41,132 nt of DNA from Acholeplasmataceae bacterium (GTDB taxonomy: Bacteria > Bacillota_I > Bacilli_A > ML615J-28 > CAG-698), in NCBI GenBank assembly GCA_012718985.1, contig JAAYBG010000081.1, positions 1-41,132 on the forward strand, read 5' to 3'. Under the pieces are notes generated by a model that was given only the letters and a program-made list of their open reading frames with translations, was not told the origin of the DNA and made no database searches. The first letter of the stretch is position 1; each line of letters starts with the position of its first letter. Of this stretch, positions 9,320-41,075 are shown piece after piece. The position numbers and the translations under genes are program-made.

Positions 9320-10537
9320 CTACTTACAATTGCCACAACAGCAATTCTTATCGTTGATAATTTCTACTCCTGGTAATACTTTACCTTCAAGATATTCTAA
9401 GCTCGCTCCACCACCAGTAGAAATGTGGCTGAATTTTTCTTCATATCCTAATTTGATTGCTGCAGCAGCACTATCACCGCCACCAATGATTGTAGTAGCA
9501 TCTGGTAAATTAGCTAGAATTCTGCAGATACCATTTGTTCCGACAGCAAATTTATCAAATTCAAATACTCCTGCAGGACCATTCCAAACAACTGTTTTTG
9601 CTCCTTGCAATTCTTTTTCAAATAATTCAACTGTCTTTGGACCAATATCCATACCCATTTCATCAGCAGGAATTTGATCAGAAAGAACAACACGACTTTC
9701 AGCAAATTCACTAAACTCTTTTACTACAACTGTATCAATCGGTAAAATGATTTTTCCATTTGCTTTTTCTAACAATCCTTTTGCGAATTCAACAAAATCA
9801 TTCTCACATTTGCTTGTTCCTACTTCGTATCCTAATGCTTTATAGAAAGTATAGGCCATTGCACCACACACTAATATCTTATCTGCTTTATTGATTAAAT
9901 TTTCAATAACTGAAATTTTATCGCTTACTTTTGCCCCACCTAAAATAGCTATAAATGGTCGTACTGGGTTATCAACAGCATTTCCAATGAATCTAATCTC
10001 TTTTTCCATTAGGAAACCAGCAACAACATCTTTCATATTAGCAGCAATTCCAGAATTAGAAGCATGAGCTCTATGAGCGGTACCGAAAGCATCATTAACA
10101 AAAACATCACCCAAGGAAGCCCAGTATTTTCCTAATTCAGGATCATTCTTAGATTCCTTTTTACCATTTATGTCTTCAAATCTTGTGTTTTCAAACATAA
10201 CAATATCGCCATTATTCATTGCTTTAATCGCTTTTTCTAACTTTTCACCCCTTGTTTCATCAATAAAAACAATTGGCTTATTCAATAATTCCGACAATCT
10301 TTTTGCTACTGGAGCTAAGGTGTTATCCGCTTTATCAGCTTCTTCCTTCACTCTTCCTAAATGTGAGAATAATACTATTTTCCCCCCATGCTCAATTGCA
10401 TACTTAATTGTTGGTAATGCCTGGACAATTCGATTATCATCAACAATTATCCCATCTTTCATTGGCACATTAAAATCAACTCTGATTAAAACAACTTTTC
10501 CTTTTAATTCAACATCTTTAATTGTCTTTTTGTTCAT
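9320..10537 (-). CDS. pgk: Phosphoglycerate kinase
   Basis: Starting at the ATG at 10537, which is preceded by a clear AAGGAG, the gene encodes 405 residues. It has the family motifs [47 protein letters not shown] and the nucleotide-binding WNGPAGVFE and [11 protein letters not shown]. It makes ATP from 1,3-bisphosphoglycerate. Two features are odd. First, there is no stop codon between this start and the upstream membrane-protein frame, so a fused product is possible in addition to free PGK. Second, the C-terminus is extended by [11 protein letters not shown], a cysteine cluster not typical of PGK. The catalytic core looks intact. Confidence 0.96.
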
Positions 10538-11086
10538 TTTTTTTCTCCTTTTTAAATAACATTTTCTCCAAAGCCATATCAGCATATATACAATAATATA
10601 GGTTAATGTAATCCAAACAAATGATACAATTCCATCTCCAACTTGGAAAATAATTCCCAATAATCCTAGTAATGTAAGTTCTATTATTCTAGAAACCGAA
10701 ATCACCAATAAATATTTTTTTGTTTGAAACCCCGAAATTGCCATCGTATAATTAAATATTGATGTCGGTGTATAAGGATTAGATAAGAGTAAAATTAAGG
10801 TTGAAGTATTTACCTTATTAATCCGCTGTATCGTTTGTACAACTTTCTCGTTTTTTTCCACTTTCTTACGAAACCATTTTCCAACGGAATATTTTAAAGC
10901 GAAGAAAACAATTGATGCACCGATAATTGAACCTAGTGATGATACTAACAATGCCAGACCCTGGCTCCCTGCAAAAGGGAAAACAGCGTTAAACATAGCA
11001 AGGTTGTAATTAACGATTATCACCAACGGTAAAAAGGGCAGAATTGCTTCTAATATTGGAAGAAACAAAGCAATTAAAATGGTCAA
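10538..11086 (-). CDS. TVP38/TMEM64 (DedA-like) membrane domain, in frame with pgk
   Basis: About 183 hydrophobic residues resemble the VTT/SNARE-associated TVP38 family. They include [20 protein letters not shown], then [20 protein letters not shown], a polar [12 protein letters not shown] loop, [20 protein letters not shown], which fits the family's conserved P-x-T-P-S region, and two final membrane helices. The frame runs straight into pgk through YLKRRKK with no stop. The first usable start is TTG at 11086, but the open frame continues upstream for about 26 more codons of plausible N-terminal sequence. There an AAAGGTG Shine-Dalgarno faces only ATC/CTG codons. This is either a real fusion with a non-AUG start or a gene damaged at both ends. 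Confidence 0.7.
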
Positions 11087-36764: not shown

Positions 36765-38111
36765 TTATTCGATAGCATTAACCGTAATCGTTATGCTTTT
36801 CTTTAATTCTGGATTGACTTTAGAGGTAACTGTTATTGTTGCTGTTCCAGGGTTCTTTGTATTTAAAAAGTATTTTCCGCCCCTTTCAGTTACTGTTGCT
36901 ACATTTTCATCGCTGCTGGTGATTTCAAATTCTTGAAGAGCATGTTCTGGTTTGATTTCGATTGTCAGAGCAATGTTGCTTTGCTTTTCATCAAAAACAG
37001 TTTCTCCATCAGTAGTTTTAAATTCTATATCTGTTGGTGCAGGAATTGGTTTAATAACAATTGTTAGTTTCTTTTCCACTTTTCCGTCAGCAGTTTTAAT
37101 TGTAACTTCTAATGTCCCCTCTGCAAGAAAAGTAATGGTATCTTTCTCTAATTTTGCTAATAGTTCGTTATTAAAAGAAACTTCTACTTCTTGATTAGCG
37201 TTAGCAGGTTCTACTGTTGCCTCGATTTTGAAAGTATCACCAACATAAATCTCGGTAGTTACTTCTTTCACTGTTAATCCTGTAGATTCAGCCCAAGTTA
37301 CAGTAATATCAACCGTATCGCTTACTAAACCATCTGCGCTTGTTGCTGTAATAGTTGCATTCCCAACAGCAACAGCAGTTAAATTACCATCTTTATCCAC
37401 ACTAACTGTTTTCGCGTCACTTGTAGTCCATGTATAATTAGGATTTGCCAACGCTGGCGAAATAGTTGCTTTTACTTTCGCTGTTTCAGAAAGGACCATT
37501 GTTTCTTTTCCGCTGGTGAATTCAATCTCTATTTTGTTTGCATCATGATACTTAACTTCAACAGTTTTAATGGCTACAATTGTTCTATCATATTGAGAAG
37601 TAGCAGAAATAGTCGTAGTTCCTGCTTTATTTCCTGTTAATTTTCCATTGGCATCAATAGTTGCTACTTTAGTATCTGATGATTTCCAAATAACATTGTT
37701 TTCAAGATGACTTGGTGTTACCTCTGTAGTGAAGGTAACGCTTTCGCCAATTAATATTGAATTCACTCCGTTAATTTTTAAAGAAGAAAGCGATTCTTTT
37801 CCTACAGTAATATTAACAACAGCTCTGGTCAATGGTTCACTCTTTACATAAGCCGTTAATTTAGTTGTTCCTACGGACAAAGCGGTAAGTATATTCTCCT
37901 GATAAGATATAATCGACGAATTACCAACTACATAAACAATTTCTTCCTTTGGACTTACACTTCCTAAAATTACTTTTATTTCTCTCGTCTCACCGACAAT
38001 TAGATCTACCTCATGTGCTTCAAAACGGAAAACGTCCTTCGTTTTAGTGTTGGCACATCCAGTTAAGAACACAACTAAAAAGAGCAATAGTAAAAACGCT
38101 TTTTTCTTCAT
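36765..38111 (-). CDS. Lipoprotein with five Ig-like (BIG2) repeats
   Basis: The 448-residue protein has a lipoprotein signal (FLVVFLTGCANT). The rest is about five tandem bacterial Ig-like domains of roughly 83 residues: about 29-103, 104-186, 187-270, 271-354 and 355-446. Repeats 2, 3 and 5 show the BIG2 core clearly, as in WKSSDTKVATIDANGKLTGN, then KAGTTTISATS, and WTTSDAKTVSVDKDGNLTAV. No enzyme motif is present. Such surface proteins often act in adhesion or cell-surface structure; no partner is indicated by the neighbours. The mRNA leader has a hairpin between Shine-Dalgarno and start. Confidence 0.88.
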   Translation of the reverse strand: MKKKAFLLLLFLVVFLTGCANTKTKDVFRFEAHEVDLIVGETREIKVILGSVSPKEEIVYVVGNSSIISYQENILTALSVGTTKLTAYVKSEPLTRAVVNITVGKESLSSLKINGVNSILIGESVTFTTEVTPSHLENNVIWKSSDTKVATIDANGKLTGNKAGTTTISATSQYDRTIVAIKTVEVKYHDANKIEIEFTSGKETMVLSETAKVKATISPALANPNYTWTTSDAKTVSVDKDGNLTAVAVGNATITATSADGLVSDTVDITVTWAESTGLTVKEVTTEIYVGDTFKIEATVEPANANQEVEVSFNNELLAKLEKDTITFLAEGTLEVTIKTADGKVEKKLTIVIKPIPAPTDIEFKTTDGETVFDEKQSNIALTIEIKPEHALQEFEITSSDENVATVTERGGKYFLNTKNPGTATITVTSKVNPELKKSITITVNAIE

Positions 38112-38297: not shown

Positions 38298-38669
38298 ATG
38301 GATTTTATTAAAACAACAAAAGCACCGGCGGCTATCGGACCTTATTCACAAGCAATTAAGGTTGACAATTTTATTTTTGGATCAGGACAATTACCGATTG
38401 ACCCACAAACAGGATTAATGAAAGTGGGAATTGTTGAGCAAACAAAACAAATATTATCAAACATAACCGCTATTCTTGAAGCAAGCAAAGCTCATAAGAA
38501 TGACGTTGTAAAAACAACAATTTTCCTATCAGACATCAATAATTTTTCTGTAGTGAATGAAATCTATGCTGAGTATTTTGGTGAACACCGACCAGCAAGA
38601 TCGACAATTGAAGTTTCAAGATTACCGAAAGACTCATTAATTGAAATCGAGTTTATTGCGAAAATCTAA
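38298..38669 (+). CDS. ridA: RidA family reactive-intermediate deaminase
   Basis: The 123-residue protein is a typical RidA/YjgF/UK114 member: [45 protein letters not shown], then [20 protein letters not shown] with the substrate-binding Arg, and [14 protein letters not shown] at the end. RidA hydrolyses reactive enamine/imine intermediates made by PLP enzymes such as threonine dehydratase. AGGAGGTTCCT precedes the ATG, and a TATAAT about 30 bases further upstream suggests a promoter. It is probably co-transcribed with the thioredoxin-like lipoprotein gene 14 bases downstream. Confidence 0.95.
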
Positions 38670-38683
38670 TTCGAGGGAAACAA

Positions 38684-39982
38684 ATGAAAAAATATATCCT
38701 TATAATATTACTGCTTATTGCCGTCATCAGTATTGGTTGCAACAACAAAGAAATTAACTATCTATTCGATAAAGATAACCCTACAGAAATTGTTTTGCAA
38801 CCAAAGAAAAAAGTTAGTTTCATGAATATCACGGGCAATGATTTTTATAAAGAATGGTCTGATCTATCTCTTTATCAAAAAGAAAAGGAAGTCATCCTTC
38901 CACCTGACCTATTTATGAATTTATCTCCTGGTGATTATGTATTAAAATTAGCTTATAGTGAAAATGGATTTTATTCCTACAAAATTTCTATTGTTGGTTA
39001 TAATAAAACATTTAATTATATAACGAAAGAACAAATTTTCACACAAGAGGATGATTTCTTTTATGTTTTACTTACGAGAGAAGGTTGCACTGGTTGTGAG
39101 ACCTTAAAACCAATCTCATATAAATATAATGATTTTATTCTTTCTTATGATTCCCTTTACAAACATAATTTTTATGTTGTTGAAGGGGGCATTTCCTCAA
39201 CAGGAGAAAATGAGGACTTAACAGGTATAGATAACTACGAAGATTTAATTAAACAAACAAAAATGTACACTCCAACCTTGTTGATTGTTGAAAACAATGT
39301 AATTACCTCTTACTACGTAGGGACCACTCCTATTACCGAAGTATTCGATCAAGAAATGGAAAGAATAAAAAACATTGACGTAATTAATTTTGTTGTTGAA
39401 AATCCAAAGGCTTTTTCTATAACTATTGATTTTGTTCCTACTAACTTCTCCCTTGTTGGTCTTAATATAAATAAAACCTTCCGTGCTGGTTCTCATTATA
39501 TTGAAGGTTCTAATAATTTTACATTTAGCGCTGATTTCTTCAGTATCTATTTACCAGGTCGCTATTCTCTAACAATTTTTAATGATTTGGGCGACTCTAA
39601 ACTAGTAGATGTTAAAATTTCTAGTTCGCTTAATTATCTATTATGGGATGATATTTTTAATGTTACCGATTCTGAATATTTTGTCTTCTTTTTAAAAGCT
39701 GGTTGTCCAGGATGTAACTCTGTCAAACCTCTTTTAATTCAATACGATCGATTTACTAAACTTCATCCTTCCTCTCCACCATTATATGCGGTTCATCGTA
39801 GCATGAACGACAACTTTAATAAAAAATCAGAAGAAAACGCAATTGGTGTTTCAAGTTCTGATGAACTTTCACTACTAGCCGTTCCGCGGGTATTACATAT
39901 CAAAAATGGAGTTGTAGTAGCTCTTTATAGCAATCTTACAACAACTTCAATTACAACATTATTTGAAGATTTAATGAAATAA
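38684..39982 (+). CDS. Lipoprotein with two thioredoxin-like CxxC domains
   Basis: The 432-residue protein starts with a lipoprotein signal (VISIGCNN). Two repeats follow, each with an Ig-like beta segment and a thioredoxin-like half. The first has FFYVLLTREGCTGCETLKP near residue 130; the second has YFVFFLKAGCPGCNSVKP near residue 340. Later proline-containing strands (MYTPTLLIVENNVITSYYVG and LAVPRVLHIKNGVVVALYSN) match the cis-Pro strand of thioredoxins. It likely acts outside the membrane in disulfide exchange, with two active sites on one chain. I know no named family for it. The gene that faces it across the terminator encodes a single-domain paralogue. Confidence 0.82.
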   Translation: MKKYILIILLLIAVISIGCNNKEINYLFDKDNPTEIVLQPKKKVSFMNITGNDFYKEWSDLSLYQKEKEVILPPDLFMNLSPGDYVLKLAYSENGFYSYKISIVGYNKTFNYITKEQIFTQEDDFFYVLLTREGCTGCETLKPISYKYNDFILSYDSLYKHNFYVVEGGISSTGENEDLTGIDNYEDLIKQTKMYTPTLLIVENNVITSYYVGTTPITEVFDQEMERIKNIDVINFVVENPKAFSITIDFVPTNFSLVGLNINKTFRAGSHYIEGSNNFTFSADFFSIYLPGRYSLTIFNDLGDSKLVDVKISSSLNYLLWDDIFNVTDSEYFVFFLKAGCPGCNSVKPLLIQYDRFTKLHPSSPPLYAVHRSMNDNFNKKSEENAIGVSSSDELSLLAVPRVLHIKNGVVVALYSNLTTTSITTLFEDLMK

Positions 39983-40012
39983 AAAAATCAAGACTAATCA
40001 TCTTGATTTTTT
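39983..40012. terminator. Bidirectional terminator between the two thioredoxin-like lipoprotein genes
   Basis: AAAATCAAGA pairs with TCTTGATTTT around a seven-base loop, with A and T runs on both sides, between convergent genes. Confidence 0.9.
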
Positions 40013-40493
40013 AATTGAATTGCCTTTCTAAAGCTGTAATAATTGCTTCTTTTCCTTGGGCAACATATTTAGCTGTTTTCACACCATTCTTGTCTTTATA
40101 AATAGAAATCATAGATGGTGTTGTTCCTATTTTTAGTTCCTCCCAATTTTTAACCCCATCAACATAAAAATTCCCATCGGTTCCTTGTCCTTCAGTACCA
40201 GCATATTTTACATATAGTTGTTTGTTCTTAGGATTGCTTAGGTTAACTCCAAAAATGTGACGCTTACTATCATCCCCCTTTACAAGATTGTAGTAATTGA
40301 TGATATATGGTTTTGTTTCTTCACAACCTGTACAACCATCAACATAAAAGAAAACAAAATATTTTTCTTCTTTCTGATCAAATATATCTTGTTGAGTTAA
40401 ATTCTTAATTGTTGGCATATCCGTTTCATAGCCGCAACTACTCAATGTAAATAAACTGATTATTACTATGATAAATAGTATTATTTTTTTCAT
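40011..40493 (-). CDS. Lipoprotein with one thioredoxin-like CxxC domain
   Basis: The 160-residue protein has a lipoprotein signal (ISLFTLSSCGYE). One thioredoxin-like domain follows, with YFVFFYVDGCTGCEETKPYI near residue 48 and a cis-Pro strand IGTTPSMISIYKDKNGVKTA near residue 130. The active site GCTGC and the preceding strand are very close to those of the two domains in the plus-strand lipoprotein, so the three domains are paralogous. It probably works in extracytoplasmic thiol-disulfide exchange. It starts directly after the zinc-ribbon membrane protein gene and has AAGGAGAAATTTAA as its ribosome site. Confidence 0.82.
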   Translation of the reverse strand: MKKIILFIIVIISLFTLSSCGYETDMPTIKNLTQQDIFDQKEEKYFVFFYVDGCTGCEETKPYIINYYNLVKGDDSKRHIFGVNLSNPKNKQLYVKYAGTEGQGTDGNFYVDGVKNWEELKIGTTPSMISIYKDKNGVKTAKYVAQGKEAIITALERQFN

Positions 40494-41075
40494 TTAAATT
40501 TCTCCTTGTTCATCCTTATTTCTTAGAGAGTTAAAATCTTTTATGATTTCATTATATTTTTCTTTTGTGATATGGACATATCTTGTTTGTTTTCTGACGA
40601 TAGCAATATAGCACTTTTGCTTTTTTATTGCCCACAAGTAAAAAACGCCTATGAAAAATACAAAACACAAAATTCCTAAGAAATAAAGAAAATATTCCAC
40701 ATTTTCCTTTGATCCATCAATGATAATATTAACTTTATCTAGACCGATTATTGGTATTACAATATTAACACAAGCAATAACAAAAAATAAAACAGAAGGT
40801 AAAATTAACCCTAAAAAAGTGTTTTTCCGACAATTTCTTAGAAAAATACTATAGAGATAGTCATATGATATTTTTTCGCTTCTATGTTTTGCGATAATCT
40901 GTTCTTTTCCTTTTATCAGATGAGGCGTTAAAAATAGATACCACTTTCTTAGGGAATATCGTTGCCCTTTGTAGTTTATCTTGTTTTTTTCAAAAATGGC
41001 TAGGATACTATTCCCGCAGTGAGGACAAACTTTTGTTTCTTTTATTTCTTGATTACACACCAAACACTTTGTCAA
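40494..41075 (-). CDS. Zinc-ribbon membrane protein of unknown function
   Basis: The 193-residue protein begins CLVCNQEIKETKVCPHCGNS, a four-cysteine zinc ribbon of the type found on many small membrane proteins. Residues 25-75 are basic and soluble. Two membrane helices follow: FLGLILPSVLFFVIACVNIV and FLYFLGILCFVFFIGVFYLW. A charged C-terminal tail of about 40 residues ends the protein. I do not recognise a specific function. The start is TTG at 41075, preceded by GAGGGTGAGAAC. It lies directly upstream of a thioredoxin-like lipoprotein gene and probably shares its transcript. A TATACT upstream (near 41090) is a possible -10. Confidence 0.7.
   Translation of the reverse strand: MTKCLVCNQEIKETKVCPHCGNSILAIFEKNKINYKGQRYSLRKWYLFLTPHLIKGKEQIIAKHRSEKISYDYLYSIFLRNCRKNTFLGLILPSVLFFVIACVNIVIPIIGLDKVNIIIDGSKENVEYFLYFLGILCFVFFIGVFYLWAIKKQKCYIAIVRKQTRYVHITKEKYNEIIKDFNSLRNKDEQGEI

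Follow-up and report, generated by a model that had tools for sequence, protein, structure and literature searches.

We describe here a pair of convergent thioredoxin-fold lipoproteins, one of them a duplicated Ig-like/thioredoxin chain and the other a single domain, encoded in a 41,132-nucleotide contig from an Acholeplasmataceae bacterium (JAAYBG010000081.1; this whole stretch of analysed DNA is called the window). The pair is real and conserved, and it is without a name in the libraries used, where its best matches fall below cut-off. We tentatively regard both proteins as surface thiol-disulfide exchangers that would operate without a recognised membrane partner and would perhaps be re-set by small thiols. 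A cell-surface thiol-disulfide system had already been proposed by the first-pass annotation, and it is what we still infer from the sequences. What sets the pair apart is that no partner was recognised for it and that a conserved paralogue lacks CxxC; in its predicted function it is otherwise a variant of surface thiol systems already known.

The window is contig 66 of a 95.6%-complete, 1.45-Mb assembly in 136 contigs. The features of the locus are the following:

38298–38669, plus strand: RidA-family gene (PF01042, E 2e-41), a neighbour only
38684–39982, plus strand: tandem lipoprotein gene (open reading frame, 432 aa), a lipobox signal and then Ig-like plus thioredoxin, twice
38684–38740, plus strand: signal peptide and lipobox of the tandem protein, Cys19, read directly
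39014–39379, plus strand: tandem thioredoxin domain 1, residues 111–232, CTGC, Thr-Pro 196–197 (alignment, model and profile comparison)
39380–39628, plus strand: second Ig-like domain of the tandem protein, residues 233–315 (model and profile comparison)
39629–39979, plus strand: tandem thioredoxin domain 2, residues 316–432, CPGC, Val-Pro 400–401 (VIA structure match, conserved CxxC)
39982–40012, no strand assigned: 12-pair hairpin with U-runs on both strands, common to both genes (folding z −3.7 on plus, −3.0 on minus)
40011–40493, minus strand: single-domain thioredoxin lipoprotein (open reading frame, 160 aa), lipobox Cys20, CTGC 54–57, Thr-Pro 125–126
40494–41075, minus strand: zinc-ribbon protein gene (open reading frame, 193 aa), two hydrophobic stretches, membrane helices by eye

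As annotated at first pass, the open reading frames place the two lipoprotein genes tail to tail at the positions then given, 28 bases apart, and the zinc-ribbon gene on the minus strand like the single gene, which it precedes and whose start it abuts with zero spacer. The hairpin between the convergent genes is likely a two-way terminator for both. The RidA-family gene lies ahead of the tandem gene on the same strand, with a 14-base gap. An identical single protein is encoded in L053 (Clostridiales bacterium isolate UBA8386), from which it can be seen that the zinc-ribbon gene is preceded, beyond the window's edge, by a gene for a class II fructose-bisphosphate aldolase. Of the 11 other named loci, L061 is titled Gastranaerophilales and duplicates the genes of L060; the rest are titled Bacilli, Bacillales, Acholeplasmatales, Acholeplasmataceae or Mollicutes. 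The lipoprotein locus adjoins mnmG and is near a ParA-like gene; this is a stable chromosomal region, so that synteny alone is weak evidence of function, and the conserved order there may be ordinary synteny. Plasmid carriage was rejected, with no match among 72,556 plasmid records at E 1e-3.

Two further frames of the window deserve mention. The minus-strand gene at 36765–38111 encodes a 448-aa lipoprotein with four Big_2 stretches and zero Cys past the lipobox, and Big_2-type lipoproteins like it were seen by eye near the thioredoxin pair in several related loci. At 9320–11086 (minus strand), a 588-aa open frame comprises a VTT (DedA-like) membrane domain (36–144) and a phosphoglycerate kinase (189–569) with a Cys-rich tail at its end; given a likely ribosome site and ATG inside it, seen by eye, it may represent a fusion, a frame overlap or both.

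The predicted fold is thioredoxin-like, as claimed before this analysis, in both the models and the VIA matches. The model of the single protein (pLDDT 92.3) aligns in VIA with plain thioredoxins at Z 12.1 and rmsd 2.1–2.2 Å over 98–99 residues. The tandem model (pLDDT 84.7, from a five-sequence alignment) has beta-rich domains in alternation with thioredoxin ones; in VIA, its domain 2 aligns with thioredoxins (Z 11.3, rmsd 3.0 Å, 99 residues), and the fold of domain 1 was assigned from the strands and helices of the model and from sequence homology. According to the alignments and the single-protein model, CxxC opens the first long helix and a conserved Pro follows later, as is expected of the thioredoxin superfamily, and this Pro is found in all three domains, in agreement with the first description of the locus. 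The three domains are indeed paralogous: compared profile to profile with an alignment of 23 relatives, domain 1 gave E 1.4e-19 and domain 2 E 6e-26. The two halves of the tandem protein also align to each other (E 4e-25; reversed control 0.38), and the same is true of their Ig-like parts alone (E 9.5e-10; reversed control 0.29). The alignment of the halves means that the protein is a duplicated Ig-like plus thioredoxin unit, more than the "tandem-domain" member first described. We use the label Ig-like on the basis of the model, of Foldseek rows dominated by Ig chains and of weak, sub-cut-off Pfam matches (CBM_X2, and Big_3 in an orthologue). The Foldseek matches of the whole tandem model, in which Ig chains come first, were otherwise discarded as a guide to anything but the alternation of domains, with TM values of 0.12–0.21 by query length in the best 50.

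Known families lie at some distance. The top thioredoxin-type Pfam match of both proteins is Thioredoxin_2 (PF13098), at 25.6 and 16.7 bits versus a cut-off of 27. In a profile search of solved structures, the top rows were 3hcz ("possible thiol-disulfide isomerase", E 6e-5), which we take to be a Bacteroides-type protein, and 4fyb ("DsbC", E 2e-4), both of which are distant kin only. TlpA/ResA-like names are absent among the first 50 VIA rows, which excludes nothing. The tandem protein matches the PedC/BrcD bacteriocin disulfide isomerases (TIGR01295) weakly, at 22.1 bits, far below the cut-off of 120. Among the papers listed by literature searches, none apart from those on Etrx deals with this lipoprotein family, which is no proof of absence.

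The active-site pattern given in the first-pass annotation, FF-x4-GC(T/P)GC-x3-KP, has 0 matches in the window in its literal form. Once corrected to [FL][FL]-x3-GC[TP]GC-x3-KP, the claim of three sites stands, with exactly three matches in the window, two in the long chain and one in the short; the first site of the long chain has LL instead of FF ahead of the motif. This corrected pattern gave 0 matches in 394,007 bases of the same genome's other contigs and 0 in 200 shuffles of the window, and a looser form ([FLIVYM]{2}-x3-x-C-x2-C-x3-KP) found the same three in the window, one in the other contigs and two over 200 shuffles. The motifs themselves, CTGC in domain 1 and CPGC in domain 2 of the tandem protein and CTGC in the single one, fail to discriminate an oxidant from a reductant. 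Lipobox signals had been attributed to all members, and they can be read directly on both chains (ISIGC, TLSSC), that is, two signals for three domains. The cysteines are conserved in orthologues, a point on which the original reading had been made to depend: neither the lipobox Cys nor CxxC varies among the 23 aligned relatives, a set that comprises the window and was selected for bearing CxxC, and Cys19 of the tandem lipobox is invariant in 5 of 5 aligned sequences, again with the window.

Natural variation of the active site was seen in a set of 33 aligned CxxC relatives picked by name. Seven have CxDC, and the same seven are without Pro at the cis-Pro position, which is occupied by Pro in the other 26 (one of these a stray, a membrane-anchored protein of another family) and in the window's three domains. 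The best tree needs two changes for this link, too few for statistics; none of 200 bootstrap trees had a single change, and well-supported branches still do not force two. Five of the seven form one branch in which every member (5/5) has two additional Cys at equivalent positions. These suggest a structural disulfide and, with it, that disulfides could form outside these cells; other relatives have 0–3 extra Cys with no paired pattern.

Searching 40 genomes, we found matches to the single protein at E <= 0.1 in 35, many by signal-peptide similarity alone, and at E <= 1e-10 in 22, its own included. The full tandem protein was matched in five of the 40, again counting its own, and was read additionally in G213 and L057; over these seven genomes the CxxC of domain 2 is kept in all and that of domain 1 in five, the window's among them. 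A second copy is present at the locus in 12 genomes and is convergent with the single gene in 11, as a tandem gene in seven, a short one in three (G004, G018, G267) and a single-unit one in G005, where one gene lies between the copy and the single gene and the 217-aa protein resembles one Ig-like plus thioredoxin unit. The exception is G017, with a cut-off copy (CKYC, E 9e-10) downstream on the same strand. For the closest pair of genomes, at a dS of 1.0–1.5 that is near saturation, dN/dS was 0.10 for the single gene, 0.13 for the tandem, 0.09 for the Cys-less paralogue presented below and 0.23 for the zinc-ribbon gene; the first three are under purifying selection. A profile search of the class matched 102 of 296 genomes at E <= 1e-6, a count that mixes the lipoprotein family, CxxC-less paralogues and other thioredoxins. 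In another family of the class, a 309-aa lipoprotein (L174, 1493–2419, plus strand) has two CxxC stretches in tandem; as it has no room for Ig-like domains, it is probably an independent tandem.

The search for a CcdA/DsbD-type membrane reductase that had been suggested at first pass found none. At E 0.01 the genome, which at 95.6% completeness may lack a partner or hold one in an unmodelled family, gave no match to DsbD_TM (PF02683), DsbD_2 (PF13386), DsbB (PF02600), VKOR (PF07884) or MauE (PF07291). DSBA (PF01323) had no match in either lipoprotein and none at this threshold in the genome, which supports the earlier suggestion of a system without a classic DsbA. As positive controls, 14 named genomes gave PF02683 in 10, PF13386 in 11, PF02600 in 6, PF07884 in 3, PF07291 in 6 and PF01323 in 9; MauE is a weak probe, over cut-off in one control of the 14. 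Over the 40 genomes, matches at E 0.01 numbered one for DsbD_TM, four for DsbD_2, one each for DsbB and VKOR and three each for MauE and DSBA. Those over cut-off were reduced to one for DsbD_TM, one for DsbD_2, two for DSBA and none for DsbB, VKOR or MauE, the lone sub-threshold DsbB and VKOR matches being broken by stop codons. The DsbD_TM and DsbD_2 matches over cut-off fall on the same gene of G016, next to which a CxxC protein with a hydrophobic stretch at its N-terminus is encoded; the lipoprotein family gives only a signal-like match there (E 0.06). A DsbA in relatives was also considered and set aside: the PF01323 proteins over cut-off, in G009 and G013, look cytosolic, with the catalytic motif within the first 20 residues and no signal.

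The zinc-ribbon membrane protein was considered as a CcdA-like relay, a role that we rejected. Upstream of the single gene, this two-helix gene or one presumed to be related to it occurs in 15 of the 19 family loci read, a count made of 13 aligned loci chosen for having the gene plus G213 and G267, and it was unseen in G006, G017, G019 and G022. Identity to the window's protein ranges from 19 to 63% in the 13 aligned loci, and some neighbours may therefore not be true relatives. The zinc ribbon itself is not conserved: the aligned relatives have two CxxC near the start in five cases, one in two and none in six, and three of the 13 have no Cys beyond residue 61. There is no conserved membrane Cys. 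In L013 the gene carries a fused GNAT acetyltransferase domain (PF13302, E 2e-17), along which the relatives in L012 and L014 also align, and in L008 a separate GNAT gene lies between. In L016, by eye, a GNAT acetyltransferase gene replaces the zinc-ribbon neighbour.

One close precedent is that of Etrx1 and Etrx2 of Streptococcus pneumoniae, which the accessible portion of PMC3914529 presents as surface thioredoxin lipoproteins fed by CcdA1 and CcdA2 and serving MsrAB2. As in that account, so far as it was available, two thioredoxin-fold lipoproteins would share a low-GC Gram-positive surface, here by virtue of lipobox sequences only. By the same partial source (PMC3914529), the resemblance ends with the supply and the client, since here neither CcdA/DsbD nor a membrane MsrAB was found; moreover, one of our proteins is a duplicated Ig-like/thioredoxin chain. 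The Etrx–MsrAB route was accordingly rejected: the one MsrA match in the genome is a frame of 167 aa, too short to include a signal or MsrB as well, and hence no MsrAB of the pneumococcal membrane type. A wider form of the same idea is that a carrier of a kind not recognised here passes electrons across the membrane to the lipoproteins, which then keep single-Cys surface proteins reduced. Besides the Etrx precedent, it draws on C58 and C80, Thioredoxin_2 frames of this genome that have the size of cytosolic proteins, on G016, which lacks the lipoprotein and has its hydrophobic-N-terminus CxxC protein beside a DsbD_TM gene, and on the lone Cys beyond the lipobox in five of 12 other sampled lipoproteins. 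The lack of a DsbD_TM or DsbD_2 match in the genome, that single short MsrA frame and the lack of a conserved membrane Cys in the zinc-ribbon protein all speak against it, and we consider such a reductant pathway rather unlikely.

The exported cysteines were counted over 435,139 sampled bases, which are 30% of the genome and contain 345 open reading frames, with lipoproteins recognised by a simple, crude rule. The 14 sampled lipoproteins have 0.0048 Cys per aa beyond the lipobox versus 0.0119 in 184 cytosolic-like proteins; without the thioredoxin pair, the other 12 have 24 Cys in 5,701 aa (0.0042 per aa), with none past the lipobox in three, one in five, two in one, three in two and eleven in one 2013-aa protein. 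The sample left out 115 membrane rows, and 15 rows classed as "secreted/anchored" (0.0067 Cys per aa) were set aside, as several of them were clearly cytosolic enzymes. Being cysteine-poor, the sampled lipoproteins would offer few substrates or clients, and they fit the cysteine avoidance that Daniels reportedly described in 2010 for some Gram-positives.

Precedents for exchange without a dedicated partner do exist. The DsbA of Staphylococcus aureus is said to be a lipoprotein, and a DsbA of this type needs no DsbB or VKOR re-oxidant. In the section of PMC12453122 at our disposal, Gram-positives are described as having partner-less DsbA-like catalysts, small thiols are proposed as electron acceptors in clostridia, and one clostridial DsbA is re-set by glutathione disulfide or ergothioneine and not by cystine, with two others re-set by none of the small thiols tried. 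Like the partner-less DsbA of S. aureus and clostridia, as far as this section goes (PMC12453122), the present pair would be an exported thiol oxidoreductase, here a predicted one, without DsbB/VKOR; unlike it, the pair has plain thioredoxin domains and no DSBA-family match. In the model that we tentatively prefer, the CxxC centres of both lipoproteins would exchange disulfides with a few exported proteins or small thiols, and their re-setting would be carried out by low-molecular-weight thiols or disulfides, or by a protein of a kind not recognised here, without a dedicated DsbB, VKOR or DsbD/CcdA. Domain 2 of the tandem protein, which keeps its CxxC in all genomes compared, would be the working centre, and domain 1, with its losses, may be a helper or binding domain.

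Looking for further copies, as suggested at first pass, led to contig 99 of the same genome, which encodes a membrane-anchored paralogue of 177 aa with an N-terminal hydrophobic stretch and zero cysteine. The 16 CxxC-less proteins of the window's family form one tree group (SH-aLRT 98); CxxC occurs in none of them, and 11 have no Cys, three have one and two have three. In the window's genome the gene is located beside acpS and whiA. Two other families of the class have a membrane-anchored thioredoxin with CxxC between acpS and tex, with whiA ahead of these genes confirmed by Pfam in one of the two. Given the shared place beside acpS, cysteine loss from a retained protein is the simplest reading; deep branching in the domain tree is weak, so that the tree leaves unproven the descent of the paralogue from a CxxC protein at that place. 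In a sister family, 11 of the 12 genomes read have the gene for a related membrane protein devoid of CxxC immediately after that for the CxxC lipoprotein, the exception being G031, with one membrane-anchored protein that has CxxC. None of the 11 sister partners has an active-site CxxC, two have CxxC inside the membrane helix and two have no Cys at all; the family profile recognises ten of them (E 9e-6 to 1e-14), and the eleventh, from G027, is similar only to the sequences of its neighbours. These partners mostly bear Cys, and therefore "Cys-less" holds for most of the window's family and not for the sister family. In the CxxC-less partners of L020, L021, L022 and L161, the residue right after the conserved Pro is a lone Cys (IPC or LPC), and another Cys lies close to the C-terminus.

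These CxxC-less loci bring in another possible client. Of the 11 sister-family loci, seven have a lipoprotein of 325–350 aa ahead of the CxxC lipoprotein and the CxxC-less partner of the latter (L020, L022, L023, L036, L158, L161 and L173, directly upstream and GerS/LolA-like by weak profile matches); of the 16 loci in the window's family, eight have one ahead of the CxxC-less gene. The thioredoxin lipoproteins could be dedicated to the folding or maturation of a single substrate of the neighbour type, such as this GerS/LolA-like protein, an idea favoured by the adjacency and by the weak GerS or GerS-related matches of 12 of the 13 proteins scanned (out of 15). The remaining one has no match, the best GerS-type scores are 18.8–35.8 bits versus cut-offs of 100–175, and no GerS-like gene lies beside either copy in the window's genome, at the window locus or at the CxxC-less locus; we hold this explanation to be improbable. 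A partner-free surface system in which the CxxC lipoprotein and the membrane-anchored CxxC-less pseudo-thioredoxin form one complex, exchanging electrons at the membrane or across it along a path independent of DsbB, VKOR and DsbD/CcdA, seems to us just as improbable. Within the exchange model that we prefer, the CxxC-less paralogue would probably be a docking or adaptor subunit.

The conservation of this paralogue and the loss of the domain 1 CxxC in two of seven genomes imply that part of the family works without the motif, and on these two grounds CxxC might be metal-binding or structural and the family a chaperone or binding domain rather than a redox enzyme in practice, a reading that we rate lowest, as the window's three domains retain the Pro and the two Cys are kept as a pair by the 23 aligned members (chosen for CxxC), with the two tree changes of the CxDC/Pro switch too few for a test.

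All together, the analysis addresses the question of how extracellular thiols are handled in Gram-positives without quinone-linked DsbB/VKOR or a CcdA relay. In this regard, the family is a small, well-bounded case, with defined proteins, a conserved candidate partner devoid of CxxC and natural active-site variants in relatives.
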